From positions 1-24,039 of IMG/VR virus record IMGVR_UViG_3300032883_000219: a DNA stretch of 24,039 nucleotides; one strand, written 5' to 3'. The notes beneath the pieces were generated by a model. That model saw nothing but the letters and a program-made list of their open reading frames with translations. It ran no database searches and was not told where the DNA came from. Of this stretch, positions 2,399 through 24,039 are shown piece by piece. The stretch comes from a virus. Each line of letters begins with the position of its first letter. The stretch's first letter is position 1. Both the position numbers and the translations under genes were made by a program.

Positions 2399-2399
2399 T

Positions 2400-3407: not shown

Positions 3408-3411
3408 CTTC

Positions 3412-3933: not shown

Positions 3934-3942
3934 AAATCCTCC

Positions 3943-4533: not shown

Positions 4534-4552
4534 TCAATCCTCGATTTCAGAT

Positions 4553-4801: not shown

Positions 4802-4814
4802 CTTGCGCCTCCAT

Positions 4815-4845
4815 AAAAAAGGGCCCTGCTCTAGAAACAGGGCCC
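4815..4845 (-). terminator. intrinsic terminator after the major capsid gene
   Basis: On the minus strand GGGCCCTG and CAGGGCCC form a perfect 8-bp stem around a 9-nt loop, followed at once by six T residues. It lies 20 nt downstream of the capsid stop codon and just before the next gene's ribosome binding site. It would reduce transcription into the connector and tail genes. Confidence 0.9.
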
Positions 4846-4864
4846 AGCCAAGGCAAAATCAGAA

Positions 4865-6271
4865 CTAGATGGTGCCTGTCTGCTGCCAGAAGACATCATC
4901 GACACTCAGATTCTTGATCGCGCCCCACGAGGAGCGCTGCAGAGTGCCAAGATTGACGTAGGTGCGAAGCAATCCGGCCACCGCATCCGCGATGCCGCCC
5001 GCTCCGATGATGCGAGTCCAGGTCCCCGCCTCGTCGTCAGCGAGAGTCAACGGAACCGCCTCGAACTTCTTCATCATCGAAGAAGCGCCGCAGTAAATCC
5101 GGTCCGGCCGGGCGTCCTTGTCCTCGATGATCGGGATTCCCGCATATTCGAAGACGTCGTACCCGATATCGAGAGCCTTCTTGCCGATCGGCTTCCCGCC
5201 GTTTGTTTCGAAACGGTAATTCTGGGTCGCAAACCTCACGAGCTTCGCAACCTGAGCCGAAGGGAAGATGAAAACGTCGGGCTGCTCACCGCCGCGGTTC
5301 TTTACGAATGCCCGCAGAGCGTGCAGGTAATACGAGGAAAGATCGTCTCCCGCAACGTCGTAGACGAACGATGTCCAGGATTGCTGCCCGGCCGTCGCCG
5401 GGTTAAGCCCCTGAATCGCTCCCGTGTCATTGACGAGCGAAACCAGCCCTTCCATCGTGGTCGGATAATTTCCGACAATGCAGGACTCGCCACCGAGCGT
5501 CACAGCTTCCGCTGCTATCGCCGTTCCGAGCGTGTGGGTGACAGCTCGCGTGGCGTAGTTGATCGCCGTGATGATAGAACTGCTGCACGTCGAGACCGCC
5601 ATTCCACCGACGGTGTATGTGTCGATCGGCATCCCGAGCCGCAGATACAGCGCCCACGGGAATCCACCGGCTGCGTCTGCGGTGAATGTCCCGGCACCAG
5701 GAGCCGGCGCTGCAGCAACACTCGCGATCTGCCCGCCGCGATCCGCGCCAACAGACAGGACGTTCATGTGACTGACCAGGTCCTTGGTGTCATACTTGAC
5801 TTCGAGCGCCTTTGCCTGCATGAAGGAGCGCGCATCGCCCTTCGAGAGATTCTCAGCCTGCCCGGTGATTGTCTCCGGCACGTAGCCGTATTTCAGGAGG
5901 ACGGTCGCGTTTGCTAACCCCTGGTTGCCGCCGGCTCCTACACCAGCCACACCTTCAGGCCTAAACCCCATGTTGAAGTTAGGACGCAGACGGGCGAGGA
6001 AGACATAACCTCGGACGCCCAGATTGTTGACGGGCTTACCAAATTTGCTTCCGTCCCCGAGTAAATTCATAAACGCGGGAAGGGTGCTCACTTGGTCCTG
6101 AATCGCCCCATAGATGATCTTCATGTCCGCGAGAAACGTTGTCGCGTCAACGATCCCGAACATCGGGAGCATGAACGGCAGCAGGGCCAGAAGGCCCAGT
6201 CCGCTCATGTGAAATTCCGCATGCTGAAACAGAGGCATGAACAATGCCCAGAGAATGCTGATAGGGTCCAT
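4865..6271 (-). CDS. major capsid protein (HK97-fold-like)
   Basis: 468 aa, the main shell protein by inference. It follows the scaffold gene by 20 nt, has GGAG 7 nt before ATG, and is followed directly by a strong terminator, the usual setting for the most abundant virion protein. The sequence has HK97-like features: an N-arm/E-loop-like region (residues ~60-190), a P-domain-like region (QPDVFIFPSAQVAKLVRFA around 325-345), and a C-terminal segment typical of A-domain strands (AGIPIIEDKDARPDRIYC). Unusually, the first ~45 residues contain two hydrophobic runs (ISILWALFMPLF and GLGLLALLPFMLPMF). These may be an N-arm that is removed or buried on maturation. Confidence 0.8.
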   Translation of the reverse strand: MDPISILWALFMPLFQHAEFHMSGLGLLALLPFMLPMFGIVDATTFLADMKIIYGAIQDQVSTLPAFMNLLGDGSKFGKPVNNLGVRGYVFLARLRPNFNMGFRPEGVAGVGAGGNQGLANATVLLKYGYVPETITGQAENLSKGDARSFMQAKALEVKYDTKDLVSHMNVLSVGADRGGQIASVAAAPAPGAGTFTADAAGGFPWALYLRLGMPIDTYTVGGMAVSTCSSSIITAINYATRAVTHTLGTAIAAEAVTLGGESCIVGNYPTTMEGLVSLVNDTGAIQGLNPATAGQQSWTSFVYDVAGDDLSSYYLHALRAFVKNRGGEQPDVFIFPSAQVAKLVRFATQNYRFETNGGKPIGKKALDIGYDVFEYAGIPIIEDKDARPDRIYCGASSMMKKFEAVPLTLADDEAGTWTRIIGAGGIADAVAGLLRTYVNLGTLQRSSWGAIKNLSVDDVFWQQTGTI

Positions 6272-6291
6272 CGTCGATCTCCGTCAAAGCG

Positions 6292-7143
6292 CTAGGAGTA
6301 CTTCCCGAGAGGCCCGGTCTTCGGGAATCGGCCGGCAGCCATATCATCCAAGGTGAACTTGGTGTCGCCGTCGGTTCTTCCCTGCCCCGGTTTCGGTGGT
6401 TCTCCCACGCGCTTTTGCTCTCGCTGTGCGCGGGCGAGGTAGTACTTATCGAGAAATGCGCGAGCCTCATCCACGATCCGAGCGACGTCCGAGATCTTCC
6501 TTTCCGACACCACCCGCTTATAAGCTTCGGGGTCGGCTTTGATCATCTCGGCTGCCACGGTGTAGAGAGTTTCGCGCTCCTCTTTCGGTATTACATCGTC
6601 TTTGAACAGCTCTTTGACTTTGGCATCGAAAGCCTGGTCGAAACGGTTGTTCGCCTCGTCTAAGAGACGCTCCCGATCCCTGTCCAGGACCGGCTTCAGC
6701 CGCTGATTCAGCTTGGATTCGAGCAGCTTGTCCAGGTCCTGGGGAGTACCGCTTTTCGTCGTTTCGGCCTGCTTTTGACGCAGAAAGGCCATCGTCCCAT
6801 GGGGGTCCTCGGCGTAAGCTTCGAGGATTTCCTTTTGCTCGTACCCAAGCGCCGCGCCGATCTCAACCGCCCCATTTCGCCCCTTGGCGAAAGACTGGTA
6901 TGCGGTCGCGACTTCCTCGCGCTTGCCGAGCTTTTCCCACTCAGTCAGATTTCCTTTCGTCGCTTCGTACTGCTCCCGGAGTTGGCGCATGTTGGCCGTT
7001 TCTCCGGAAGAGGGGGGAGGCGAGCCCCCGCCGCTGCCTTGCTGCGCTCCTGGCGAGGGAGTGGCTGCTGCCGGTACTCCAGATCCGGTTGGGGCTGGCG
7101 AGGCCCCTGTGTCTGCCGGTAATGCACCCGGACTTGATGCCAT
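6292..7143 (-). CDS. capsid scaffolding protein
   Basis: 283 aa. The first ~50 residues are disordered, rich in Pro, Ala, Ser and Gly. The rest is helical and charged, with a coiled-coil-like core around residues 130-185 (LDKLLESKLNQRLKPVL, RERLLDEANNRFDQAFDAKV), ending in a short basic/Gly tail (GRFPKTGPLGKYS). This composition and the position directly before the major capsid gene are characteristic of phage scaffolds that guide procapsid assembly and are then lost. The start at 7143 has AGAGG 7 nt upstream. No protease motif is seen, so the scaffold is probably expelled or cut by another enzyme. Confidence 0.75.
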   Translation of the reverse strand: MASSPGALPADTGASPAPTGSGVPAAATPSPGAQQGSGGGSPPPSSGETANMRQLREQYEATKGNLTEWEKLGKREEVATAYQSFAKGRNGAVEIGAALGYEQKEILEAYAEDPHGTMAFLRQKQAETTKSGTPQDLDKLLESKLNQRLKPVLDRDRERLLDEANNRFDQAFDAKVKELFKDDVIPKEERETLYTVAAEMIKADPEAYKRVVSERKISDVARIVDEARAFLDKYYLARAQREQKRVGEPPKPGQGRTDGDTKFTLDDMAAGRFPKTGPLGKYS

Positions 7144-7157
7144 AACAATCCTCTCAA

Positions 7158-7188
7158 AATAAAAAGGCCCCGCGACATGCGAGGCCTT
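7158..7188 (-). terminator. intrinsic terminator upstream of the scaffold gene
   Basis: On the minus strand AAGGCCTCGC pairs with GCGGGGCCTT (one G-T pair) around a 5-nt loop, followed by a T-rich run. It separates the 171-aa gene (stop at 7207) from the scaffold gene (start at 7143). The stem closely resembles the one at 8436-8463. Confidence 0.85.
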
Positions 7189-7206
7189 GGTTTGAATTGA
7201 AATCCG

Positions 7207-7722
7207 TTATGCCTTTACGAGAGCTGCAAGCTCGAACGTGATCGGGCCAGGAGTCGTTCCTGCCGGAATCAGCGTATAGTTGAGGCCTTCACCCAGCGCC
7301 CCATTACGCACCATTCCTGCCGTCAGCGTTCCCCGACCTTCAGCCGCCGCGTCCGTAATGGTCGCCAGAGTCGAGGTGTTGACCGCCACCACGCCCGGCC
7401 CAGCCGTTGTCACTGTTTGCACTTGCGGAGGCTGGCCTTTGACAACCATGGTCAAATACCTGGCTGTCACCGTGGCGATTGACGTGAAGGCGCAGATGTC
7501 CCAGCGCGCGTAGACCCCACTTGGCAGCCTGTGAAACGTGTTGACGAAGAATGCATAGGTCTCGTCGGCGTTGGTCCTGTCCGCCAGGACCATGTTGAGC
7601 GTGATGATGACTTCTTTCACATCCTCAAGCCCGAAGAGCTTGTCAATCCCGTTGATGGTCGTCGGACCAGCCAATTGAGCCGGTGTCAGGGTGATCATCG
7701 GCTGTAAAGTGATCTTTTTCAT
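7207..7722 (-). CDS. putative virion decoration/minor capsid protein
   Basis: 171 aa, no firm family. It is small, acidic to neutral and beta-rich (TVTARYLTMVVKG, QVQTVTTAGPGVVAVN), with many Thr, Val, Ala and Gly residues and no Cys-rich or catalytic motif; such composition is common in capsid decoration proteins. ATG at 7722 is preceded by AAGGAG at good spacing. The gene is bounded downstream by a terminator and lies between portal and scaffold/capsid genes, so it is expected to be abundant in the virion or procapsid. Decoration is an inference from place and composition. Confidence 0.55.
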   Translation of the reverse strand: MKKITLQPMITLTPAQLAGPTTINGIDKLFGLEDVKEVIITLNMVLADRTNADETYAFFVNTFHRLPSGVYARWDICAFTSIATVTARYLTMVVKGQPPQVQTVTTAGPGVVAVNTSTLATITDAAAEGRGTLTAGMVRNGALGEGLNYTLIPAGTTPGPITFELAALVKA

Positions 7723-7774
7723 TTCCGTCTCTCCTTAGTGTCGGTTGACATACTGCAACGCGAGAAACTCGCCC

Positions 7775-8416
7775 TTAAATGGGCACCTCTTCCCAGATGA
7801 AGCTTTGCTGAGCGACAATCGCAACCGCGGTGGATCCGACCAGCTGGATTGCGCTTCCGGGCGGAACAACGATTCTCCCATCGACGTAATCGACCAGCTG
7901 GTAAGGCTGGATGGTCTGTGCCGACGTCACCGGGAGAACACTGCAGAACGGCATCAAATGCCCCGGGTTGGCCGTTGTGGTGTTTACCGCCGGCGAGAAT
8001 AAGGCCGTCGATGAAGCTCCAAAACCGATGTAAGCATTGACCGGGGCAACGAAAGTTGCCGTGGGGAACGGAGCGGCTGTTGCAATGCCCGATCCGGCCG
8101 GAGAAACCCATCCATAACACACGCAGCCCATAAGGCCGGTTGTGCTGTGGTGCGCGAGGATAGTAGCAATCAGTACCAGGTCATAGTTATTTCCTGCCGG
8201 GTTCCACAGCGTCAGGGCGTTTGCCTTGGCGCTGAAGATCGGGATAGCAAGCCCCGTAACCAGATTGCTTCCGATGAATACGCGGCCACGCTTCACGGCT
8301 TCGTAATACATGCCGTGCGCAGTTTGAATCACCTGCGCCCCGCTCCGATCAACCCTGAGCGGACCAGTCCCATAACCGTCCAGTATGACTTGTGCTCCAA
8401 CAACTTTGTCTGGCAT
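7775..8416 (-). CDS. putative virion structural/decoration protein
   Basis: 213 aa, beta-rich with many Gly, Ala, Thr and Val residues (LTLWNPAGNNYDLVLIATIL, GRIVVPPGSAIQLVGSTAVA), reading like a jelly-roll or Ig-like virion surface protein. The start at 8416 has GGGAG upstream and follows a terminator that ends the portal unit. It contains ANPGHLMPFC at about residues 148-157, encoded by the 32-bp sequence also present at 4664-4695. Here it fits smoothly between flanking beta segments, so this gene is the likelier donor. No enzymatic motif is visible. Confidence 0.55.
   Translation of the reverse strand: MPDKVVGAQVILDGYGTGPLRVDRSGAQVIQTAHGMYYEAVKRGRVFIGSNLVTGLAIPIFSAKANALTLWNPAGNNYDLVLIATILAHHSTTGLMGCVCYGWVSPAGSGIATAAPFPTATFVAPVNAYIGFGASSTALFSPAVNTTTANPGHLMPFCSVLPVTSAQTIQPYQLVDYVDGRIVVPPGSAIQLVGSTAVAIVAQQSFIWEEVPI
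7943..7974. repeat. 32-bp exact direct repeat, copy 2 (likely donor)
   Basis: Identical to 4664-4695. It is in frame within the 213-aa virion protein gene and does not disturb its reading frame, so it is probably the original copy. The two copies lie 3.28 kb apart. Confidence 0.95.
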
Positions 8417-8435
8417 TTGCTTTTCTCCCTCAAAT

Positions 8436-8463
8436 TAAAAAGCCCCGCTTTTCGGCGAGGCTT
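8436..8463 (-). terminator. intrinsic terminator after the portal gene
   Basis: On the minus strand AAGCCTCGC pairs with GCGGGGCTT (one G-T pair) around a 6-nt loop, followed by T-rich sequence. It lies 65 nt beyond the portal stop and 20 nt before the next ATG. It is nearly a sequence copy of the terminator at 7158-7188. Confidence 0.85.
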
Positions 8464-8527
8464 CGGTTTGCTGCAATCGGCATCGGCAAAGCATGGCCGC
8501 GCCGGCACTGGTGTGCTCTTTACTGCA

Positions 8528-10657
8528 CTATCCCGGAGGTATGTTCCCCGCGACCGGAGGCATGTTGGGCGCAGGCGGAGCTCCAGGAATACCTGGTGGA
8601 CGTCCGAGAGCCGGAGGGGAGATGGCCTCCGCCTGGCGAACCCCGTCAATGTATTGAATGAGCATCTGCTGCGCCTCTGGTTTCCAACGGTCAAAGTCCA
8701 AACTCTTTGCGGCTTCCAGACAAATCCCGATGTGCGTCGAGGCGTCATCGATCCCCGATCTGAATTTCGCCGGCTGGCCCACTCGCATTTTCTTTACGTT
8801 GACCCGGGCCCTGCGGGCATCGTCGTTGAACGTCTTCAGAAGCCCAGTCTCTCCAAACAGCTCGAAGACCTTCTCCTTCACGTTCGGGTCGTTCATATCC
8901 AGAGCGCCCTTGTCATAGAGAACCATCAGTTCCTGCCGGCGCTCGTCGCGCGTCTTCGGCAACCCGGAGCTCGTCGCGATGAAGGTCAGCCGCTTGTCGA
9001 GGTCCGCTTTTTGAAACTCCTGTATTTGACTGGCCTTGTCCGTGCCGACGATCGCCGCAATCTGCTCGAAAGTGTAAAACTGCTGGTAGTTTTTGATTAC
9101 CTTTCGAATGGTCTCCTTCCACAGGTTATTCCAGTTCGAGGTAGGTTTTGAAAATTGCAGCTCCGCCTGGCCGCGGAGTTGCGAGATCGCACTTGCCGCC
9201 GTTACCGACCCGGGCTGCTCGCCCCTGAAGACCGCCACCGCCGCGCTGATCCGCTGCATCGCTTCCAGAATCTGCGTGCGTTTCGCATAGATCGCCTCAT
9301 CCAGCGATCCGTGCTGCATGCGGTGCGGTTCCCGAGATCCAGGTCCGATTGACCGCCAATGAATGACTTTGTCAGCCCGGCCTGTGATCTCGCTTACGAC
9401 GGTGTTATCGTCGATCACCACCGGCTCCACGGCGCTCGTCTTACTGTGGAGCGAAATGATGCTCTCGTAACTGTTCAGCTCCCTCTGCAATTCGAGGAGA
9501 TCAAACGACACCGACCTTGCGAAAAAGATCGTCGGCATCTGCAGGTAATCGCCCTTGCTTACAGGATGCTCGACAAACGGCCACGGATTGGCGATCTGAA
9601 CTTTTCCGCTGACATAAACGGCATACAGCCCTTCGGGCCAGTCTTTCATCTTCCCTGGTTCAATAAAGCACTGAACGACCAGCGCCCCGTCCTGACTCTC
9701 GAGCTGTCTTTGTGAATACCCGAGATACCAGAAGGCCATCGACTGTTCGTAAGTCACCGCAAAGCCATCGGGCTGCTCGTTGTCGGCCGTCACCTCGATC
9801 CCCCAGCGCTCCCGGATCTCGTCGATCGAGAAACGCTGACCCCAAAGCAGGTAGGGCGTCTCACCCATATTTCTCGCCCCAGGCCTCGGGAATGCGTGTC
9901 CCGGATCACCAACCTCCACGCAGATCTTCTTGCGGGTGATCTCCTCCATCACCGGCTGTCCCTGATCGTCAAGCACCTGTTTCGGCTCCATCCGATCTGA
10001 ACTCTCGACCGGTCCACCGCACTTCGGACATTGTTCTACCGGAGCCTGCAGCCCTCCCTGATAGAGATCGCACTCAGCGCATTGAAAGCCATAGCTCTGG
10101 CCCTGCTCCATCTTGGGGCGCTGGCCCACTTTGACGTCCTGGGGATATACGAGCGTAAAGACGTTTCCCGACAAAACAAATTCCTGTGCTGCGGAACCCG
10201 CCTTGTCTTCGTCACTCTTGTAGTCGCTTCGGAGGGCGTTGTCTTTGATGCAGAAATCTATGAGCTCGTTTGCAATCTCCGCCACCTGCATGGCGAGCTC
10301 GTCGTCTCGCGGCTGGGGAACGGCCTCAACCTCGGGAACCGTGTTGAAATTACTGCAGATTGCGTCGATCGCCGGAGCAAACTCGTTGATGCGAGGCTGC
10401 GGAACGAAATCGTCATTGGGAATCGCCTTGCGCCAGAAACTCCCTTGAGCGAGATCGCGATCGAGCCACATCTCACCCGCGTAAAAGAGCCTCGCCTCCC
10501 AGATTTTCAGATGGTAGACGTGATAGGCCGTCCGCAGTTCAAGCCATTTCTTGTTTACGAACTCCTGGGCTTTGCCCATCAAATCGTCAGCAGGCACAGC
10601 TTCGCCCTGGCTTTTGCCTCCCGGCAACAAGCCTGCGATTTTATCGAGTAAGCTCAT
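8528..10657 (-). CDS. portal protein with internal zinc ribbon (podovirus P22 gp1-like size)
   Basis: 709 aa, close to the ~725 aa of P22-type portals. Portal-like features include the N-terminal helices and clip-region order, the segment FRGEQPGSVTAASAISQLRG (residues ~500-520), and the WNNLWKETIRKVIKNYQQFY helix (residues ~530-550). The position downstream of terminase and before decoration, scaffold and capsid genes fits the dodecameric DNA gate. Residues 193-213 hold a four-Cys zinc ribbon (C193, C196, C210, C213) inserted near the middle of the N-terminal half. The C-terminus is a Pro/Gly-rich tail. The start overlaps the upstream stop as ATGA. Confidence 0.8.
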   Translation of the reverse strand: MSLLDKIAGLLPGGKSQGEAVPADDLMGKAQEFVNKKWLELRTAYHVYHLKIWEARLFYAGEMWLDRDLAQGSFWRKAIPNDDFVPQPRINEFAPAIDAICSNFNTVPEVEAVPQPRDDELAMQVAEIANELIDFCIKDNALRSDYKSDEDKAGSAAQEFVLSGNVFTLVYPQDVKVGQRPKMEQGQSYGFQCAECDLYQGGLQAPVEQCPKCGGPVESSDRMEPKQVLDDQGQPVMEEITRKKICVEVGDPGHAFPRPGARNMGETPYLLWGQRFSIDEIRERWGIEVTADNEQPDGFAVTYEQSMAFWYLGYSQRQLESQDGALVVQCFIEPGKMKDWPEGLYAVYVSGKVQIANPWPFVEHPVSKGDYLQMPTIFFARSVSFDLLELQRELNSYESIISLHSKTSAVEPVVIDDNTVVSEITGRADKVIHWRSIGPGSREPHRMQHGSLDEAIYAKRTQILEAMQRISAAVAVFRGEQPGSVTAASAISQLRGQAELQFSKPTSNWNNLWKETIRKVIKNYQQFYTFEQIAAIVGTDKASQIQEFQKADLDKRLTFIATSSGLPKTRDERRQELMVLYDKGALDMNDPNVKEKVFELFGETGLLKTFNDDARRARVNVKKMRVGQPAKFRSGIDDASTHIGICLEAAKSLDFDRWKPEAQQMLIQYIDGVRQAEAISPPALGRPPGIPGAPPAPNMPPVAGNIPPG

Positions 10658-10929
10658 TTGGATTTGATTTTCTCAGCGAGTTCCGTTGTGGTCTTGGCCT
10701 GGTCGAACCACCCGGAGGAACGAATCGGATCCGACCGACGGAAAATGAGAGGCTTCCCTTCCGCCCTTACCAGAGCCTCAGTCAGCGCTCGATTGTCCTG
10801 GCGCAGTTCGTGAAGCTCTTCGATCAGCTTTGCCGCTTGCCGGCTGGCCTGATGCGCCCAGAGCCAGATCAGCCAACAGGCCGCAGCCAGGAAGAAACCC
10901 AGAGTTATGCAAAGTTCTATTGGTGTCAT
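10654..10929 (-). CDS. small membrane-anchored helical protein
   Basis: 91 aa. A single N-terminal transmembrane helix (residues ~5-25, LCITLGFFLAAACWLIWLW) is followed by a charged coiled-coil-like helix (residues ~28-58, KLIEELHELRQDNRALTEAL). It overlaps both neighbours by 4 nt (ATGA), so it is coupled to them. Such a layout resembles i-spanins (Rz-like) or other phage inner-membrane accessories, but a lysis role is not supported by neighbours: no endolysin or holin is adjacent. Function unknown. Confidence 0.6.
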   Translation of the reverse strand: MTPIELCITLGFFLAAACWLIWLWAHQASRQAAKLIEELHELRQDNRALTEALVRAEGKPLIFRRSDPIRSSGWFDQAKTTTELAEKIKSK

Positions 10930-11246
10930 GACGTCGGGAAACAGTCCTCCAGGATTCCAATCGCATCCGAGGCCTCGAGAAAGACCTTTGTTGAGGGATC
11001 CTCGTAGTGGTCGATCTCGTGGCCGTCTTTGTTCTTCTCTTTGCGCGATTTGTATCGGATCGAGGCCGTAAATCCATTGTCGACCTTGCGGATCGTTACC
11101 TCGTCCACCACGCGCCTCGGATCCGGTTTGTCTTTCTTCTTTATTCCTGGATCAGTGTCCTCATTTTCATCCACGTCAGTCATGATCGACTTGGCCATGC
11201 TCGCCATGCCCGGCTTGCTGATTGGTTCCTTTTCACGGAATGCCAT
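10926..11246 (-). CDS. hypothetical phage protein, charged
   Basis: 106 aa from ATG at 11246, which overlaps the upstream stop as TGATG and has GGAGG 7 nt upstream; a GTG three bases earlier is less likely. The first half is disordered and rich in Lys, Asp and Glu. The second half looks like a small beta-rich fold (EVTIRKVDNGFTASIRYK) ending in a helix (SDAIGILEDCFPTS). No known family recognised. It sits in a block of small genes between terminase and portal and is translationally coupled on both sides. Confidence 0.6.
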   Translation of the reverse strand: MAFREKEPISKPGMASMAKSIMTDVDENEDTDPGIKKKDKPDPRRVVDEVTIRKVDNGFTASIRYKSRKEKNKDGHEIDHYEDPSTKVFLEASDAIGILEDCFPTS

Positions 11247-11614
11247 CACCGCACCTCCAGAATGTAAGTAACCCCCGAAACCTTCTTCGCTTTCTGCCCC
11301 TCGACGAACCGCCGGGCGCGTAGGTTATCCTCGTCGACCACCATCAGCGCCTCGCGGTGTCCCATCGTGCGGGCCGCTCCCATCTCATATGCCGAAAGGA
11401 TCTCAGCGACCTTGTGGCTGCCAAGGGATGGCTCTACCGCGAGGCAATGGATCAGCAGCATCGGCCTGATCGCTATACTCCCGACGATCCGTCCCTCGCT
11501 CTCGACCACCACAATGACATCCTTCCCGGGATCCAGATCCGCCATGTCACCGTGGCATAAGTCTTTCAGTCCATCAAAATCCTCAGGATCCTTATAGGCC
11601 CTTGCGAGCATCAT
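11246..11614 (-). CDS. GNAT-like acetyltransferase-fold protein
   Basis: 122 aa. The order of elements matches a GNAT fold: beta strands with VIVVVESEGRIVGSIAIRP (residues ~33-51), then LLIHCLAVEPSLGSHKVAEI (motif A region, residues ~53-73), then a strand and helix with EALMVVDEDNLRARRFVEG and a final strand (VSGVTYILEV). The acetyl-CoA pyrophosphate loop normally reads R/Q-x-x-G-x-G/A; here it is SLGSHKVA, so binding may be altered. Small GNAT proteins are known in phage morphogenesis regions, substrate unknown. The start overlaps the upstream stop. It could be a structural relic of the fold. Confidence 0.6.
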   Translation of the reverse strand: MMLARAYKDPEDFDGLKDLCHGDMADLDPGKDVIVVVESEGRIVGSIAIRPMLLIHCLAVEPSLGSHKVAEILSAYEMGAARTMGHREALMVVDEDNLRARRFVEGQKAKKVSGVTYILEVR

Positions 11615-11919
11615 CCTACATTCCGCCGCGGCACGTTACGTAACACGGCCAGGTCGTTCCCCGTCGGCTCAATGATTCTACTTCCCGGAACTTCTTTGGG
11701 AGCCTCAAACGCCATCCAGGCATAGGAGAGCTGAGGCACGAACACCGGCGCATTAATGGCACCGCAGGCGTTACACTTCCGCTCATCCAGGCTCCAGGTC
11801 GGAATCAGCGCGATCTGGCTCATCATCCCGTTATCCGCGCGCACCATGACCGGCTTATGCACGCGCATCGGCGCCTGACACTTGCCGCACAAAAGGTCTA
11901 TCGTCTCAATCTCCGCCAA
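11611..11919 (-). CDS. zinc-ribbon protein in the late operon
   Basis: 102 aa starting at TTG 11919, with GGAGGG 7 nt upstream and a 14-nt overlap with the gene before it. Two CxxC pairs (CGKC at residues 11-14 and CNAC around 49-52) form a four-Cys zinc ribbon interrupted by ~34 residues. The remainder shows no recognised motif. It lies between the large terminase and the GNAT-like gene. The role could be assembly or packaging support, but nothing in the sequence decides this. Confidence 0.6.
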   Translation of the reverse strand: MAEIETIDLLCGKCQAPMRVHKPVMVRADNGMMSQIALIPTWSLDERKCNACGAINAPVFVPQLSYAWMAFEAPKEVPGSRIIEPTGNDLAVLRNVPRRNVG

Positions 11920-12088
11920 AGGGCTTCCCTCCGAATTTCTTCTTCTTCAGTCCAGGACTGCCTCTCCTGAAATGTCCGAGCGTCGGGTCTTCATGCAGCT
12001 CCTTTTCCATCTTGGCCTTCTCCTCTTTCGAGAGCGGAGAGCCTTTCGAAAAGAGGTATTCAACCTGCCGCTCTGTCCAGGGTGCCAT
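11906..12088 (-). CDS. small basic hypothetical protein
   Basis: 60 aa from ATG at 12088, whose start overlaps the large-terminase stop as TGATG with AGGAG upstream; a longer upstream reading would run inside the terminase gene. The protein is very polar and Lys-rich (LSKEEKAKMEKELHED), ending in a basic Gly/Lys tail (LKKKKFGGKPFGGD). It has no known domain. Coupling to the terminase and basic charge would suit a nucleic-acid-associated packaging accessory, but that is speculative. Confidence 0.55.
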   Translation of the reverse strand: MAPWTERQVEYLFSKGSPLSKEEKAKMEKELHEDPTLGHFRRGSPGLKKKKFGGKPFGGD

Positions 12089-13629
12089 CAGAACCAGCTC
12101 TCCTCGTTCTTTGCCTTGCCGAATCCTTTTGCCCACTTCTCGTGCGTCCGTAACCGCACCTGCTCGATAGTCGGAAGCCGGGCCACATCGAGCTTCTTTT
12201 TCTCAGCTGCGGACGGCCGGCTCATCAGGGTGTAGCGCACATCGTCCAGCCAGTGATCCGAACCCGCGAATTCGATCGTTCCATCACTGCGTAATTCCTT
12301 TTTCAGACCCACCAGCTCACGCCACCCGTTCGGATTTCGCCGTCGGCTGATGAAGATCCGAGGGCTGCCGAGAGTCTGCGTGAAGGGGTTGACGTGAAGC
12401 GGATTGACGTGCAGGTACTCTTTAATCAAGTCAATCCCGACCCGGATATTGGCCCTGTGGGCGGCAATTGTTCGGATCTCCCTGCCCGCCTCGACATGCC
12501 CGAAGCGCGGATCCGAATAAGCCGCCTGCACCGAGTACATCTCTTTCCCTGATTGCAGGGTGTCGCTTTCGGTCGACGGGTCGATCAACCGGTATTCCGG
12601 ATGCCGATAGGCCTCCTCGAGATCCCAGATCGCCGCGGCGTGCTCGCTGATGCGCTGGTTTTCTTTATAGTGCTCCTGCAGGGCAAAGCAGTTTTCATCC
12701 GAATCGAATCCCGTCAGCGCGTATGCGGTGATGCCTGTCGATGCGTGATCCAGGCACCCGATCAGCCGGAAGCCCGAATGAAAGCGCGCCCATTTATCCG
12801 GGTCCGACGTGTCGAAGTAATTATCGAGATTATGGATCCGCTCGTTGAGCTCCGTGAAGACCTGCCCTTCATGAATCTCCCAGCTGCCCTCGAGGTAGCG
12901 CTTTACCCACTCCTCGTCCATCGTGGCCCGAAGATCGGCTTCCCAGTTCGGAGGAAGGCCGGGGTTATCTCGAGGAAGGAACTGAATGAATTCCGCGTCG
13001 GCCTTGCCGACGATGTAGTCCTCCGACTGATCGTCTGCAAAGCGGTTTTTCACCCAGCCGGGCTCCGGGTTACTGGTCAGCATGGCCATGTAGGGCGGAC
13101 GCCGTCCCTCGGGAAGCCTCCAGCAAAGCTGAGCCAGCAACTGCCGATAGGCGTCGAAACTGCATTCCGAAGCCTCGTCTATCCAGAACCAGCCGAGCTC
13201 CACCGACTTCGCGCGTTCCTTGGATCGCGACCTGGCCGTCGAGGCAGAATCCTCGCCGAGTCCGCGGTAAATGATTTCAGAGGGATGCTCGGGATCTGTG
13301 CTCCGGATGACTATCCGGTGTTCCGACTTATTGTGGAGGATGATCAGTTCAGGAGGGCACAACTCGAAGAATGTTACGAGGGTTGAATCGCGCAGATCGG
13401 TAAAGGCCTGCCGGCCGATCATCCCGCGGTTCCCCGGGAAGACTACCGAAAGCATGATCGCCTTGGCGGATCCGATGACTCCTTTCCCGCCGCGCTTTGC
13501 CCCGCCGCCCAGCTGTTCCCGCGCAGCGGAGTTCAGAAACTGCAGCTGCTTTGCCGACGGACCGTAGCAGCCATCGTTACGCAGCGGCCAGCGAAGATCC
13601 ACCGCGGGCGCAGCTGTTACGATCGCCAT
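12088..13629 (-). CDS. terL: terminase large subunit
   Basis: 513 aa packaging motor ATPase/nuclease. A Walker A-like loop (GGGAKRGGKG, residues 41-50) is unusual in ending KG instead of KS/KT. Walker B is WFWIDEA (D151, E152), followed by a coupling motif region TSNPEPGW (185-192). The C-terminal RNase H-like nuclease domain has candidate metal ligands D294 (LIGCLDHASTG), D350 and the D462/D463 pair (HWLDDVRY). The frame is open further upstream, but an earlier ATG at 13668 would add a hydrophobic segment and overlap the small terminase; ATG at 13629, 25 nt after that stop, fits other terminases better. It works with TerS and the portal to package DNA. Confidence 0.85.
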   Translation of the reverse strand: MAIVTAAPAVDLRWPLRNDGCYGPSAKQLQFLNSAAREQLGGGAKRGGKGVIGSAKAIMLSVVFPGNRGMIGRQAFTDLRDSTLVTFFELCPPELIILHNKSEHRIVIRSTDPEHPSEIIYRGLGEDSASTARSRSKERAKSVELGWFWIDEASECSFDAYRQLLAQLCWRLPEGRRPPYMAMLTSNPEPGWVKNRFADDQSEDYIVGKADAEFIQFLPRDNPGLPPNWEADLRATMDEEWVKRYLEGSWEIHEGQVFTELNERIHNLDNYFDTSDPDKWARFHSGFRLIGCLDHASTGITAYALTGFDSDENCFALQEHYKENQRISEHAAAIWDLEEAYRHPEYRLIDPSTESDTLQSGKEMYSVQAAYSDPRFGHVEAGREIRTIAAHRANIRVGIDLIKEYLHVNPLHVNPFTQTLGSPRIFISRRRNPNGWRELVGLKKELRSDGTIEFAGSDHWLDDVRYTLMSRPSAAEKKKLDVARLPTIEQVRLRTHEKWAKGFGKAKNEESWF

Positions 13630-13654
13630 CAGCACCAATCCAAAAAAGAGCGTT

Positions 13655-14218
13655 TTAGCCAGCCGCATTTTGTGGTTGGGCCCAGGGAGGCGCCGGGATC
13701 CCGGCAAACTGTACAAAGAGCGGCCCGCCAGCAACACCCGATATCTGTCTCGGTGCGTCAAGTCCGAGAATATCCGCCCGCTTGCGTATGCAGTCACCGA
13801 TTCTCTCCAGGAAGCGCGGATCTCCAGCCAGCTTCTCACGCTTACGCGTCTCTTCAACCCCCGGGAGCTCCACCAGCTCGCCTTCCCGGTCTGCCATCTT
13901 CACGCTGGTAGTCTTCGTTGTCACCGTCGTGTAGTAGCCGATCGAACGCTCCCAGGCCCGCCAGGCCTCCACCTCCACCTGGTCGATGCGTGCCAGCTCC
14001 CGCGTCTTCTGCTGCTCGATCGCTCCCACGGCCCGTGTGCGCCATTGCTCGCGGCACCACTTCATATCCTTGTGGATCTGGACGACGCTGACATGCTCGT
14101 CGGCTGCAATCTGGGCCAGCGTGTCCCCGTGTGTGTACCTCTCCGATACCCGCATCCGCCTTTCGAGCATCTGATCCGGGTTCAGGCGCTTTTTCTCTAT
14201 CTGCGGTTCCTCCGCCAT
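13655..14218 (-). CDS. terS: terminase small subunit
   Basis: 187 aa. Residues ~33-55 (DTLAQIAADEHVSVVQIHKD) form a helix-turn-helix for recognition of the packaging site. A long central helix (residues ~65-95, AIEQQKTRELARIDQVEVEA) is typical of the oligomerisation core. The C-terminus is Pro/Ala-rich and probably contacts the large subunit, whose gene follows at once. Shine-Dalgarno support for ATG at 14218 is weak (AGAAAG). Confidence 0.78.
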   Translation of the reverse strand: MAEEPQIEKKRLNPDQMLERRMRVSERYTHGDTLAQIAADEHVSVVQIHKDMKWCREQWRTRAVGAIEQQKTRELARIDQVEVEAWRAWERSIGYYTTVTTKTTSVKMADREGELVELPGVEETRKREKLAGDPRFLERIGDCIRKRADILGLDAPRQISGVAGGPLFVQFAGIPAPPWAQPQNAAG

Positions 14219-14227
14219 TTTAACTTT

Positions 14228-14410
14228 CTATGTGTTTAATCTCGCAGGTGGTTCGAGCGCGCGTCTCTGCGCCGCCGCAAAATGGCCCCAAAACCATCTA
14301 GCTTTTCGCTCCCGATTCGACAGGCGTTTCATCCGATGCCCGCCCTGGATCGTGTAGTAGGGATGCCTCTGGTCTTCGTGATACACGCGGGCAATGTCGA
14401 CGCTGTTCAC
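14228..14410 (-). CDS. small basic hypothetical protein
   Basis: 60 aa from GTG at 14410, which overlaps the upstream stop as GTGA. It is rich in Arg, His and aromatic residues (RVYHEDQRHPYYTIQGGH, then RLSNRERKARWFWGHF). No known domain is visible. It precedes the small terminase by 9 nt. Role unknown. Confidence 0.5.
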   Translation of the reverse strand: MNSVDIARVYHEDQRHPYYTIQGGHRMKRLSNRERKARWFWGHFAAAQRRALEPPARLNT

Positions 14411-14733
14411 GAGCAATACCTTTCCACTGCTGCCTCGGTACCGTTCTTCGGAAAGCTGACGTTACATCCCGGAGGATATGCCGCTCCCGGGTAGTTTCGC
14501 GCTCCGTTCCAATAGACTCGCTCGCCGCGGTTGCGTGCAAATTCCGCCGCTTCTTCGCGCAGGCTCTGCGAGCTCTCCGCGCGCCGGCGGACACTGCTTG
14601 CCTTGTCCGTGAAACGCAGGCGCCCATCCGGAAGCCATGCGGCAATACCCCTTTCCACAAAACCAGTCGCCTGGCGTTCGGACGTATACCTCGCCCCATC
14701 CAACCTGGGGTTGGAGATTTCAACTTTTGCCAT
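14407..14733 (-). CDS. hypothetical protein, first gene of the late operon
   Basis: 108 aa from ATG at 14733; the same frame is open to a TTG at 14805, and neither start has a good ribosome binding site. The product is basic and polar, with a helical middle (RRRAESSQSLREEAAEFARN) and a C-terminal part rich in Tyr, Gly and Pro (NGARNYPGAAYPPG). No family recognised. It is the first gene after the candidate late promoter at 14827-14856 and overlaps the next gene by 4 nt. Confidence 0.5.
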   Translation of the reverse strand: MAKVEISNPRLDGARYTSERQATGFVERGIAAWLPDGRLRFTDKASSVRRRAESSQSLREEAAEFARNRGERVYWNGARNYPGAAYPPGCNVSFPKNGTEAAVERYCS

Positions 14734-14826
14734 TTGTTTTGGATATACCTGTGGCTTACTTCCCGTCGGCGTCCGTGGAACGGGCCGGATCACGCCCGGC
14801 TGCAAATCTGCAGTCTGTCACTGCAA

Positions 14827-14856
14827 ATTAGAGATTGCGCGATATAACCCAGTCAA
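14827..14856 (-). promoter_or_regulatory. candidate sigma70 late promoter
   Basis: On the minus strand TTGACT (14856-14851) and TCTAAT (14832-14827) are separated by 18 nt, each 5/6 to consensus. Start of transcription would be near 14820, ahead of the whole terminase-capsid-tail array. Three phased boxes lie upstream, at about -70 to -97. Confidence 0.6.
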
Positions 14857-14887
14857 GCGATTTTGTGATTTCATCGAAAAAACTGTG

Positions 14888-14917
14888 CAGTTGGTTACAG
14901 TTGGTACCAGTTGGTTC
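14888..14917. repeat. three tandem 10-bp boxes (CAGTTGGTWM) upstream of the late promoter
   Basis: CAGTTGGTTA, CAGTTGGTAC and CAGTTGGTTC follow each other without gaps at 14888, 14898 and 14908, so each unit is on the same face of the helix. They overlap the 3' end of the zinc-ribbon gene and reach past its stop into the intergenic region. Their place relative to the promoter suits an activator-binding array. Confidence 0.7.
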
Positions 14918-15059
14918 GGTTGCCGGCCTTGATTCGTCTGTGCTTTCGCTCCCAAATTCGCATGTTGCAGAAGTGGCACTTTCCGCTTTTCATGATCTTA
15001 TCGATGCGTCCGCAGTCCGGACAGCGGGCAATTCGCTTGATCATGTGGCCTTTGGACAT
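14895..15059 (-). CDS. small zinc-ribbon protein
   Basis: 54 aa from ATG at 15059, chosen because GGGAGGG stands just upstream. CPDC (residues 13-16) and CHFC (residues 28-31) form a compact four-Cys zinc ribbon, flanked by many Lys and Arg residues (RIWERKHRRIKAG), so nucleic-acid binding is likely. It overlaps the HTH gene before it by 19 nt and is the last gene before the late promoter. A regulatory part in the early-to-late switch is possible, not shown. Confidence 0.65.
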   Translation of the reverse strand: MSKGHMIKRIARCPDCGRIDKIMKSGKCHFCNMRIWERKHRRIKAGNRTNWYQL

Positions 15060-15241
15060 ATTCCCTCCCTTCTGATGCCTTCCCGTAACACCCGCTCGAA
15101 CTCGGCACGCGGAATTTTGAGCTTCTTTCCAACGTGCACATGCCGGATCAGGTCCTGGTTGATCCAAATGTAGACGTTTCGTACAGACTCATCAAGACGC
15201 GCTGCGAGCTCGTCCGGCCGGTAGAAATCCTTTTCGATCAT
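15041..15241 (-). CDS. excisionase/MerR-like helix-turn-helix protein
   Basis: 66 aa. The sequence RPDELAARLDESVRNVYIWI (residues 8-27) followed by a wing-like KKLKIPRAEFERVL matches the winged-helix fold of HTH_17/excisionase proteins, which bind DNA as small monomers or filaments. ATG at 15241 has GAGGGA upstream. It lies downstream of the replication initiator and just upstream of the zinc ribbon and late promoter. A separate excisionase-like gene sits next to the integrase, so this copy more likely regulates transcription. Confidence 0.7.
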   Translation of the reverse strand: MIEKDFYRPDELAARLDESVRNVYIWINQDLIRHVHVGKKLKIPRAEFERVLREGIRREGICPKAT

Positions 15242-15248
15242 CCGTCCC

Positions 15249-16211
15249 TCATCCTAGTTTGCGCCGCTGCTTTTCAATCTCCCTTGCGAGCGATTCCATT
15301 TCCTTTTTGCGGCGTTCCTCGACCGTCTTTTGGATCTCTTCCGGCGTAAGTAGATTCTTGGCGTCCGCCGGCTCTCCGCCCACCAGGTCCGGCACCCGCG
15401 CCGGACGACTCGCCTCCTGTTCGTGCAGGAATGCTGTGATGTTATTTGAGAAAAACGACAGTGGCTTTCCCATCCGCAAATAGAACGGATCCCAGCTTTC
15501 GAGAAAGCGAATGATCGCCGCTTCGACGGTCGCAATCTCTAATCCGGGAGCTCTCCTGAGCATTCGCCTTAGGTCCTCGTGGTCTTTCGGGTGCGCAATG
15601 AAATCGTGAGATCGACAGTGGGCGAAGTGTTTTGAGAAGTACTCAAGGAGAGGAGCAAAGCGGGGGTCGGCGGCTTTCTCGCCGCCCCTTCTTTTGGTTG
15701 TAGTTGGTTGTAAATTGGTTGTCTGCAACTTCCATGCCTGTCCATCTCCTTGTGTCGACGCACTTTCATTGCCATTCTGAAAATGGAGAGTGGGGTTTTG
15801 CGCGGACTGTGGGGTGGTGTTTTCACCCCCCTCTGGTATGGTATTTTTAAGGGAGAGTGGGGTTTTTAAGGGAGAGTGGGGTTTTACTCCCCCTCTCACT
15901 TTCCACGTTTCCCAATCTTTGTTGATGGACCACTGTGCCGCTTTACGAAATCCGGGCCTCTTTGTCTGAAGCACGATATTCTTGCGCTGGAGCGTCACAA
16001 GCGCAGATCTCACCGAGTCAACGGGCCGCGCGGTTAGTTCCCTGAATTTAGATAGCGAAATATGCGCCTCTTTTCTTGTCCATCCCCAAGTCTCTCGGAT
16101 TACCACTCCCAAACAGGACCACTCCACGCTGCCGAGATCGGCGAGCAGTAGATGGTCCCAAATCTCATTGGCAATTCGGATGTGACCATTTTCCAGTTGC
16201 GGACGAGCCAT
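15249..16211 (-). CDS. replication initiator, lambda O-like
   Basis: 320 aa. The N-terminal ~95 residues match the phage replication protein O winged-helix domain (ENGHIRIANEIWDHLLLADL, then ETWGWTRKE and ISLSKFRELT). A linker at residues ~105-150 is encoded by repeated iterons, as in lambda O, where the origin lies inside the gene. The C-terminal part (DPFYLRMGKPLSFFSNNITA) and the charged terminal helix probably contact a helicase or loader. No P/DnaC-like loader is seen in this window, so the phage may recruit a host protein or encode one elsewhere. Confidence 0.85.
   Translation of the reverse strand: MARPQLENGHIRIANEIWDHLLLADLGSVEWSCLGVVIRETWGWTRKEAHISLSKFRELTARPVDSVRSALVTLQRKNIVLQTKRPGFRKAAQWSINKDWETWKVRGGVKPHSPLKTPLSLKNTIPEGGENTTPQSAQNPTLHFQNGNESASTQGDGQAWKLQTTNLQPTTTKRRGGEKAADPRFAPLLEYFSKHFAHCRSHDFIAHPKDHEDLRRMLRRAPGLEIATVEAAIIRFLESWDPFYLRMGKPLSFFSNNITAFLHEQEASRPARVPDLVGGEPADAKNLLTPEEIQKTVEERRKKEMESLAREIEKQRRKLG
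15694..15722. repeat. three phased TTGGTTGT boxes inside the initiator gene
   Basis: TTGGTTGT occurs at 15694, 15704 and 15715, with 10- and 11-bp spacing. The core TTGGTT is shared in the same orientation with the boxes at 14888-14917. It lies on the late side of the iterons and may be part of the origin or a regulator site. Confidence 0.65.
15785..15885. repeat. origin iterons within the initiator gene
   Basis: GGAGAGTGGGGTTTT occurs exactly at 15785, 15852 and 15871; the last two belong to a tandem 19-bp unit. A degenerate copy and inverted G-rich relatives lie between and beside them (about 15808-15835 and 15886-15900). They encode residues ~109-142 of the O-like protein, the same relative place as lambda ori. 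Confidence 0.8.
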
Positions 16212-16214
16212 CGT

Positions 16215-16676
16215 TCATAGTTCCGGCGGCAGAATAAAGGTACTTGATTCATTCAGTTCTTTTTGAAGCAAAGCCATCACATATCCCATATTGTGATGAA
16301 TCTTGGTTATCATTGGAGTCGTTCTTTTTGCTCCTTCTTCCAAAAACGAATCGTCGTCATCAAAGCCTTCGAGGTTTGAGAGACATGCCCAGGCCTTCCA
16401 CATAAAGTTCAGAGCTTCCGACAGATTTCCAGCAATTACGGTCCACTTCGGATCCGTCATTGTTACCCCGCGAAGGAATGCCTGACATCCTCTGCAGAGT
16501 CCAACGAGATCGCTTAGTTTTTCCGCGCCAAGCCTCTGAAAACTAATGTGATGGAAACAGTCCATATGATTCACATGACAACGCTCGCAGGATTCAAAAC
16601 AACGCTGCCGCACGGCCTCCCTAAGTAGACCCCACTCGCGACTGCTCATATACCGGTAGTACGCTTCTTTTTCCAC
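16215..16676 (-). CDS. HNH-like zinc protein, catalytic His missing
   Basis: 153 aa from GTG at 16676 with AAGGAG five bases upstream. Residues 30-64 show the HNH layout: CERC (30-33), FHHISFQRLG (41-50), then LSDLVGLCRGC (54-64). In active HNH enzymes the second CxxC is followed by His; here it is Gln65, so nuclease activity may be lost. The C-terminal half is helical and unassigned (YVMALLQKELNESS). It lies between the sponge-like gene and the replication initiator. It may bind DNA without cutting it. Confidence 0.6.
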   Translation of the reverse strand: MEKEAYYRYMSSREWGLLREAVRQRCFESCERCHVNHMDCFHHISFQRLGAEKLSDLVGLCRGCQAFLRGVTMTDPKWTVIAGNLSEALNFMWKAWACLSNLEGFDDDDSFLEEGAKRTTPMITKIHHNMGYVMALLQKELNESSTFILPPEL

Positions 16677-16686
16677 GTTGCTCCTT

Positions 16687-16983
16687 CTACAGCCCGCGGC
16701 CATTCAGCGCGATCGAGGCCTTCGCCATGTGAATCGCTTCCCGCAGTTTCCGGATCGCGTCCGTCCGATCTCTGCAGGGCGGGCAGACGTTCATGATCCC
16801 CAGCGCGGCGCTTTCACCCAGGTCAGACAGCACGTAGCAGCGCTTCTCGCTTTCCTCGTCGAGCTTGTGGTAGGAAAACAGTCCCCGCACGCTCTCCCGG
16901 TTTTGTGATCTCTCCTTCATATCAAGCTCCAGGAGCTGCCGCTTCAGCCGCTCCCGGGTGTTCTGAAATGAGTCGCGATACAT
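16687..16983 (-). CDS. Acb2/Tad1-like cyclic-nucleotide sponge candidate (anti-CBASS/anti-Thoeris)
   Basis: 98 aa from ATG at 16983, close to the ~94 aa of Acb2. The C-terminal hairpin segment matches what I recall of the Acb2/Tad1 hairpin family: LFSYHK (residues 35-40), a helix ending in NVCPPCRDRTDAIRKL (65-80), then REAIHMAKASIALNG (81-95). Family members carry F-x-YH, CPxSRE, LxxLEEA and ANAxIA at these places. Acb2/Tad1 oligomers bind cyclic di- or trinucleotides or cADPR isomers and so blunt CBASS or Thoeris signalling. The true start is uncertain: the frame is open upstream, with TTG at 17010 and a possible ATA at 17091 behind a strong AAGGGAG. It stands beside attP, a common place for accessory genes. 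Confidence 0.58.
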   Translation of the reverse strand: MYRDSFQNTRERLKRQLLELDMKERSQNRESVRGLFSYHKLDEESEKRCYVLSDLGESAALGIMNVCPPCRDRTDAIRKLREAIHMAKASIALNGRGL

Positions 16984-17111
16984 CGCTCCTGGATCCTGGC
17001 TGTCGGCCAAGTCCGCCAGCTCGCTGACCGTCTGGACCTGTCCCTGGTCTGGATTAACTGCGTTTTTGGTCTCTTTGTTCTGATCGTTTATTCGCTTCTC
17101 CCTTCGATTTG

Positions 17112-17130
17112 CACCGACAAAACGTCGGTG
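17112..17130. promoter_or_regulatory. perfect hairpin in the leader before the sponge-like gene
   Basis: CACCGAC and GTCGGTG form a 7-bp stem with a 5-nt loop. No T-run follows on the minus strand, so a simple terminator is unlikely. It could protect or regulate the leader of the gene at 16687-16983. Confidence 0.45.
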
Positions 17131-17180
17131 TTTCAGTGCGCTGCAAACCCCTCTCTTTCAAAAGAGGGCACAATTGACGC

Positions 17181-17418
17181 GTCCCGCTTTCGTCCCGCTC
17201 AAGGACGAAAAACAACTAAATTCTTCACGTTTTGAGGTGGGGGTGGAATCGGATAAGATGTTGAAGATATAAGGATTACTAAGGATTTCATCAAATGGTA
17301 ATGAGGACTTCGAATCCGCAGGCCGCCCGTTCGAGTCGGGCCGGGTGCGCCACTCCCTGCAACAACTTACGCCGATTTTGAAATTTTCCTCATTCATCGC
17401 TCGTCCCGCTTTTGTCCC
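17181..17418. other. attP: attP region: tRNA-Arg(UCG) 3' half flanked by repeated arm-like sites
   Basis: The core 17303-17352 (plus strand) is the 3' half of a tRNA: anticodon loop CTTCGAA, 3' anticodon strand TCCGC, T-arm GCCCG-TTCGAGT-CGGGC, acceptor CGGGTGC, then G and CCA at 17350-17352. The 5' anticodon strand has a mismatch and no 5' acceptor half is present, as expected if crossover lies in the anticodon region. A 16-bp sequence, GTCCCGCTTT(C/T)GTCCC, lies at 17181-17196 and 17403-17418 and may be integrase arm sites. Phage genes occur on both sides. The stretch from 16984 to 17389 otherwise holds only the leader of the sponge-like gene. Confidence 0.75.
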
Positions 17419-18496
17419 CTCTTTTATCATTCTGCAACTCGATTTCTTCTTCCGCCTGCGCCGACCGTACCGCCAAGTCCGCATGGCTGTCCACGTACTT
17501 GACATATCGCATCGTCGTCCGGATGTCGGAATGTCCCAGAAGTTCCTTCACCGTCCGCAGGTCGACGCCGTGCGTCATCCACGTCGTCGCCCTCATGTGC
17601 CGCAGCGTGTGAAACGTGATCCATTCGAGGCCCGCGGCCTTTCTCCCCCTCCTGAAGATCTTGTCGGGATTGAGCCACCGCCTGCCGTCAAGTCTCACCT
17701 GCCCCTGGTGAACGAATAGGTGTGGATTGCGAACAAACGGCACCAGGCTCCGCAGCTTCTCCATCGCGAAGTTCGAGAGCGGTATGGAGCGCACCTTTTT
17801 GCCCTTGGTCTTTTCCGTCAGGATCCGAGCGGCCTTCCAGTCTACCTGATCGCGGCGTAGATTGAGTGCTTCGTTCTTTCGGAAGCCCGTTTCTCCGAGC
17901 ACGGCAACAAATGCCGATATGACAGGATCGGGCATCGCGTCCACCAGCCGATGGTACTCTTCTACCGTGGGCAGCCGCAGCGCCTTCTCCTGTACTCTGA
18001 TCCCCGGAAACCTCACAAGCGGATGATGCTCGACCGCCCCGACTTCCAGGGCGTAGGAGAACATCTTCTTGATGGCCGCGATGTCCTTGTTGATCGTGCT
18101 GTCGGATACCTGACCTTTGCGTTTCTGCATGTAACTGTGCAAGTCCTGGCGGCGAAACTCGCCGAGCGGGATCGTGCCGAATTCGGCATTGAGTGTTCGA
18201 AACGACAGCTCGTAGCGGCTCCAGCTCGATAGTCTCGGTTTGCAGTACTCATCCCGGAATCGCTCCCAGAAGGAGGATACCGTCGCTGTCGCCTCAAGGG
18301 CTCCCACCAGCCCCGGCAAGACCGTGTCGAGCGTGCCGGACGCGATCGCGCCGCTCAGCCTATCGAAAACATCCTGCGCCATGGTCCTGTTTTCGTACCA
18401 GCGTCGGAAGCGCTTCATGCCGAGCTTGTTACGTGGCAGCCGCCGGCTCACTCCGTAGCGCCACTTGCCGTTCACCTTTCGCTTAATTATTCCCAT
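17390..18496 (-). CDS. int: tyrosine recombinase integrase
   Basis: 368 aa. Site-specific recombinase that joins attP to the host attB. An N-terminal arm-binding region with basic residues (residues 1-60) is followed by a SAM-like core-binding domain (~75-165). The catalytic residues are complete: R206 (GFRKNEAL), Lys in TKGKKVRS (231-234), H296-x-x-R299 (FHTLRH), H322 (LGHSD) and nucleophile Y331 (TTMRYVKY). The gene ends 38 nt before the tRNA-derived core, and one arm-like site overlaps its last codons. It overlaps the excisionase gene by 14 nt, so both are on one transcript. Confidence 0.93.
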   Translation of the reverse strand: MGIIKRKVNGKWRYGVSRRLPRNKLGMKRFRRWYENRTMAQDVFDRLSGAIASGTLDTVLPGLVGALEATATVSSFWERFRDEYCKPRLSSWSRYELSFRTLNAEFGTIPLGEFRRQDLHSYMQKRKGQVSDSTINKDIAAIKKMFSYALEVGAVEHHPLVRFPGIRVQEKALRLPTVEEYHRLVDAMPDPVISAFVAVLGETGFRKNEALNLRRDQVDWKAARILTEKTKGKKVRSIPLSNFAMEKLRSLVPFVRNPHLFVHQGQVRLDGRRWLNPDKIFRRGRKAAGLEWITFHTLRHMRATTWMTHGVDLRTVKELLGHSDIRTTMRYVKYVDSHADLAVRSAQAEEEIELQNDKRGDKSGTSDE

Positions 18497-23847: not shown

Positions 23848-24039
23848 ATGAACATTGGCCATAGAATCCGGGTCTTGCGAGAGCGTTCAGGAAAATCTCA
23901 GGAAAAACTTGCTGACGATGCCGGTCTGAGTCGCGAGGCCATTGCCGCGATAGAACAGGGAAGGCAACGCAATCCCAGGCTCATGACCCTTCGCGCAATA
24001 GTCACGGCTTGCGGCTGCAGCATGAATGACCTATTTCCC
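23848..24039 (+). CDS. XRE-family repressor (partial, runs off right edge)
   Basis: 64 codons visible from ATG at 23848. The HTH is KSQEKLADDAGLSREAIAAI (residues ~15-34), with GRQRNPRLMTLRAIV after it, typical of CI-like N-terminal domains. It is the only clear plus-strand gene here and faces away from the leftward operon, the place of a lysogeny repressor. Whether it has a cleavable C-terminal peptidase domain is outside the window. A short single-domain regulator is possible. Confidence 0.72.
   Translation, partial: MNIGHRIRVLRERSGKSQEKLADDAGLSREAIAAIEQGRQRNPRLMTLRAIVTACGCSMNDLFP

Follow-up and report, generated by a model that had tools for sequence, protein, structure and literature searches.

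The window, a stretch of viral DNA analysed over its whole length of 24,039 nucleotides (IMG/VR virus record IMGVR_UViG_3300032883_000219, positions 1 to 24,039), encodes a protein at the margin of the Acb2/Tad1 hairpin fold family, whose members sequester bacterial alarm molecules. In the conflict between phages and the defences that signal through nucleotides, Acb2-type sponges hold a central place. Neither the family nor its mechanism is new and the protein described here is a variant, one that keeps the scaffold of the domain, lacks polar residues that are nearly invariant among its relatives and carries a long extra helix at its N-terminus. Judged from its sequence, the cyclic-dinucleotide pocket is probably altered or lost. 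Since near-invariant residues have been lost and a long helix has been added, the protein probably has another ligand, or another role, than is the norm in the family. If it is just another sponge it is ordinary; as a member that keeps the scaffold without the near-invariant polar residues it is a naturally occurring case in which to ask what residues determine the choice of ligand, and also whether the hairpin fold can be reused for another signal or target.

Reading frame, fold and family

The gene and its parts are located as follows.

16687–16983, minus strand: gene for the Acb2-like hairpin protein in its ATG form, stop included (open reading frame, PF24729, phrog_1454, AlphaFold2 model)
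16984–17091, minus strand: candidate N-terminal extension of the coding region, reaching back to an ATA codon (open frame, codon usage, AGGGAG motif)
16879–16980, minus strand: added N-terminal helix, residues 2–35 (AlphaFold2, comparison with a typical relative)
16708–16878, minus strand: hairpin domain, residues 36–92, comprising the FxYH loop and helices 43–66 and 71–92 (PF24729, AlphaFold2)

The frame of the Acb2-like protein runs intact on the minus strand from an ATG at 16983 to a stop at 16687 (98 aa), and its in-frame codon usage is coding-like. A first-pass annotation of this DNA had set the limits of the gene at 16687 and 17091. The stop end stands, while 17091 marks an ATA, which is not a usual start, and the ATG form begins at 16983. 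From that in-frame ATA, 36 codons upstream of the ATG, 134 codons can be read without a stop. The codon usage of the upstream stretch (16984–17091) is also coding-like, scores as high being reached by 0.2% of shuffles and 1.6% of wrong-frame windows, both sets restricted to those free of stops. An AGGGAG motif lies six bases before the ATA and an AGGAG only two bases before the ATG. Owing to the upstream codon usage and these spacings, the length of the protein may be 98, 107 or 134 aa. A perfect small hairpin (ACCGAC GTTTT GTCGGT; 17111–17130, minus strand) is present just upstream of the AGGGAG and the ATA and is possibly regulatory; a promoter and terminator scan found nothing.

Assignment to the Acb2/Tad1 hairpin family had been proposed in the first-pass annotation, together with the accession PF24729, which is correct. 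This profile matches the protein with E 1.5e-5 (25.5 bits, range 25.2–25.9) over the full domain (residues 37–92), just under the curated cut-off of 27 bits, and phrog_1454 matches it with E 1.1e-7; these matches, like the coding-like codon usage, place the protein well above chance. A pattern scan of IMG/VR yielded more than 200 loci encoding relatives, of which 80 were kept. PF24729 is matched by all 55 rows of the alignment (54 phage relatives and the window protein) and by T4 Vs.4 as well (E 7e-20). One relative, gp101 of Tunturiibacter phage Tunturi_1, comes from an isolated phage. All the motifs singled out at first reading are found in the expected order, namely FSYH (36–39), CPPCRDRT (67–74), AIRKLREA (76–83) and AKASIA (87–92). 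The remark that the length is close to that of Acb2 is misleading, in that the hairpin occupies residues 36–92 and the remainder is the added helix. The description as a divergent branch is borne out by an end branch of 2.23 in the IQ-TREE phylogeny, the longest in the tree, against a median of 0.45, and on such a branch the suggested preference for another ligand is reasonable.

An AlphaFold2 monomer prediction built on a 50-row alignment (pLDDT 92.8) consists of three helices, 2–35, 43–66 and 71–92, with pLDDT above 95 in the two helices of the hairpin. The paired-helix hairpin on which the original assignment had been staked is present in this model, and the overall architecture, an N-terminal helix followed by two antiparallel helices and no strands, is that of Acb2. 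In a Foldseek search of the PDB, T4 Vs.4 with cGAMP ranks first with a weak E of 1.2 and Pseudomonas phage Acb2 fourth with a weak E of 2.6. A typical relative modelled in the same manner finds the identical top match at an equal level, so the weakness of the match is not peculiar to the window protein. Among the predicted viral proteins of BFVD, every one of the top twelve matches bears the name of an Acb2/Tad1 hairpin protein, at probability 1.00.

The Acb2 structures of T4 Vs.4 (7UQ2) and Pseudomonas phage p26 (8H2J, 8H2X, 8IXZ) share with the model the antiparallel two-helix hairpin after an N-terminal helix, which is short in both and 34 residues long in the window protein. No direct sequence match to these PDB chains was found. 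Among solved chains, a profile of the family sequences retrieves only Acb2 homolog 43 (PDB 9PTQ; E 5e-4), whose N-terminus is also short. The short hairpin proteins of the phrog_1454 type (PF24729; for example Tunturi_1 gp101 and L099) have the domain in common with the window protein at 27–44% identity, along with the elements FxYH, P-x-D-x-A and A-x-A-x-I-A. Tad1 shares the name of the PF24729 hairpin domain, but its hairpin is preceded by beta strands at the N-terminus (PMC12043709). An identity as Tad1 was rejected on architecture, since the AlphaFold2 model contains no strand and the window protein is thus not built like Tad1. Tad1 chains align with the family profile over about 20 residues only, with E 0.4 or worse.

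Replaced residues and the dinucleotide pocket

Across 75 non-redundant relatives, the domain has 16 positions at which 85% or more of the sequences agree. The window protein departs from five of these (P41L, Q45S, R53S, M85H and N88K), residues that nearly all relatives of the phrog_1454 type keep. By a leave-one-out count the next most deviant relatives depart at three of the 16, and 65 of the 75 at none or one. This count is the one to be relied on, as an alternative one (0 of 7 "stripe" residues) used positions picked after the differences had been seen. At less strictly conserved positions the window protein also carries Y49C and K57E. Residues 45, 49, 53 and 57, at intervals of four, share one face of helix 43–66. 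The scaffold positions are all kept (F36, Y38, H39, A60, P68, A76, E82, A87, A89, I91 and A92). Two of the replaced codons are located as follows.

16825–16827, minus strand: codon 53, Ser; Arg in 74 of 75 relatives and Lys in the experimentally studied Acb2 proteins (alignment)
16720–16722, minus strand: codon 88, Lys; Asn in 74 of 75 relatives (alignment)

A second scan used a pattern made of residues 76–84 only, as a guard against bias from motif-based retrieval. The other distinct sequences of this sample, some 30 in number and in part shared with the first set, all keep Arg 53 and Asn 88, as read from their translations.

The long end branch, and the concentration of replacements at the most conserved polar positions, could also mean that this is a decaying acb2 gene whose protein is still read and folded while its function has gone. 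Such decay is distinctly improbable, given an intact frame with coding-like codon usage and the retention of every scaffold position, which random decay would not spare. The first-pass annotation had looked elsewhere, to Cys residues, for a sign of altered ligand preference. This argument does not hold: C67 before Pro is found in 39 of the 75 relatives and C70 of the CPPC motif in 16 of 75, and only C49 is rare. Cys at 67 and 70 is therefore ordinary and gives no reason to expect an altered ligand. As far as the alignment can indicate, the loss of P41, Q45, R53 and N88 is a stronger sign of changed ligand binding than the Cys residues.

In an ungapped alignment the segment around position 53 reads NAIKDAE in T4 Vs.4 (K23), NRVKELG in Pseudomonas phage p26 (K26), KLIKSTM in Acb2 homolog 43, which thus keeps a Lys, and EAIREAA in the family consensus, as against YVLSDLG in the window protein. 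The Tyr located 15 residues earlier is kept, Y38 of the FxYH motif being aligned with Y8 of T4 and Y11 of the Pseudomonas phage, whereas the basic residue 15 positions after it (K23 in T4, K26 in the Pseudomonas phage) is not, its place being taken by Ser53. In Pseudomonas phage Acb2, K26 is reportedly needed for dinucleotide binding, and it is this Ser at the K23/K26 position that makes an altered or lost pocket probable. T4 Vs.4 is an experimentally established sponge, and replacement of Y8 by Ala in T4 Acb2 disrupts dinucleotide binding (PMC12657218). A mutation in the Acb2 of phage T2 probably disrupts the dinucleotide site selectively, as the authors of that work argue (PMC12657218), which suggests that loss of this site occurs in nature.

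It is accordingly very unlikely that this is a regular Acb2 in which other residues compensate and standard cyclic dinucleotides (e.g., 3′3′-cGAMP) continue to be sequestered. Family membership, the kept Y38 (Y8 in T4) and a new Lys 88 on the neighbouring helix would be in keeping with it, but Arg or Lys stands at position 53 in T4 Vs.4, p26, Acb2 homolog 43 and 74 of the 75 relatives where the window protein has Ser, and K57 has been replaced by Glu.

The added helix and candidate functions

In the models, the N-terminal helix of the window protein comprises 34 residues compared to eight before the FxYH loop in a typical relative. About one relative in five also has an N-terminal extension, of different sequence, so an extension alone is not new.

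The preferred reading, to which an even chance may be given, is that of a sponge with a changed or missing cyclic-dinucleotide pocket, probably not directed at the standard cyclic dinucleotides. Acb2 itself, a hexamer, sequesters cyclic di- and trinucleotides and inhibits CBASS. The protein would assemble into an Acb2-like oligomer and, by analogy with its family, would sequester a nucleotide alarm signal so that the defence effectors stay off. The sequestration of CBASS or Thoeris signals named in the first-pass annotation would likewise follow from the family. With the basic residue of the pocket gone, a ligand other than the standard cyclic dinucleotides is probable. Binding would more likely take place at the separate cyclic-trinucleotide site in the middle of the hexamer, or in a new pocket to which the extra helix contributes; in Acb2 the trinucleotides occupy a central channel of their own (PMC12043709). 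Loss of dinucleotide binding would also keep Panoptes-type decoy systems from being triggered. The PF24729 match, which T4 Vs.4 shares, and that to phrog_1454, the kept scaffold, the replacement of P41, Q45, R53, M85 and N88, the alignment of R53 with K23 and K26, the outcome of the second sample, the intact frame and the hairpin model with its fold matches count for such a sponge, as does the argued loss of the dinucleotide site in phage T2. Counted against it are the Pfam score below cut-off, a PDB fold match with E of about 1, the fact that the only close relative belongs to the same virus, and the extra N-terminal helix, which might block oligomerisation.

Another, less probable proposal is a dinucleotide-blind relative of Acb2, in which the oligomer would be kept, the pocket dismantled and the new helix used as a new ligand site (for trinucleotides only or for another signal) or to reach a new target. 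Decoy systems such as Panoptes punish dinucleotide sponges and show that dinucleotide binding can be a liability; if true, a dinucleotide-blind relative could be a phage answer to them.

The retention of the scaffold while conserved polar residues were lost, the long N-terminal helix and the overlap of the gene with a neighbour of the RepO-like gene would also suit a hairpin scaffold that has been repurposed. Such a protein would bind no nucleotide and would act by contacting proteins of the host or of phage replication, perhaps by means of the N-terminal helix, which is long and charged. This is doubtful, as no partner is known and relatives in which the conserved residues persist can also have N-terminal extensions, unrelated in sequence.

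The phage genome around the gene

The source DNA is a viral record and the carrier is a temperate phage, with integrase, terminase, portal and capsid genes. The order is integrase, 3′ half of a tRNA, Acb2-like gene, HNH-like gene and RepO-like gene, followed by the terminase, portal and capsid genes; the Acb2-like gene is thus at the head of the replication-side genes of the phage and adjoins a putative attP.

17390–18496, minus strand: tyrosine integrase (PF00589, E 8e-28)
about 17307–17352, plus strand: 3′ half of a tRNA, putative attP core (T arm, acceptor 3′ strand and CCA by inspection), adjoining the integrase stop
16215–16703, minus strand: HNH-like gene with a 17 bp overlap with the Acb2-like gene (weak HNH-type PHROG matches)
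15249–16211, minus strand: RepO-like replication gene (PF04492, E 2e-15)

The location beside attP given at first reading is plausible, in that the tRNA 3′ half is seen by inspection and Rfam gives a sub-threshold tRNA match at 17290–17341 (17.5 bits, cut-off 29). ARAGORN reported no tRNA gene, and no integrated copy that would prove the site was found. The best relative of the integrase outside this virus (53% identity) is encoded in an Anaerolineales MAG, in which there is no match to PF24729 or to the attP region. Among 301 genomes of the phylum of this MAG there is one sub-threshold match, which fits a phage-borne family, in a search run without a positive control.

Close relatives of the Acb2-like protein were absent from the genome collection, and the viral contigs contained none apart from another assembly of this virus; scans with the HNH-like and RepO-like neighbours likewise returned only that second assembly. 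The second contig (G001) is 100% identical to positions 1–18387 of the window and shares its last 123 bases (23917–24039), so that both contigs represent the same virus. Together they would close into an implied circle of about 36.8 kb. The contig IMGVR_UViG_3300033061_001707 begins inside the integrase and its positions 1–55 translate to RHTRSSSVTGVQTCALPI, which we take to be sequencing-adapter read-through, an assembly artefact.

The GC content at third codon positions is 0.49 in the HNH-like gene versus 0.80 in the overlapping Acb2-like gene, suggesting that the two have different origins. PADLOC returned no match among nine proteins of the window. A GNAT acetyltransferase-like gene (11246–11614; PF00583, E 1.5e-5) is located between the portal and terminase genes, and an exact 32-base direct repeat (4664–4695 and 7943–7974) brackets the major capsid gene region.
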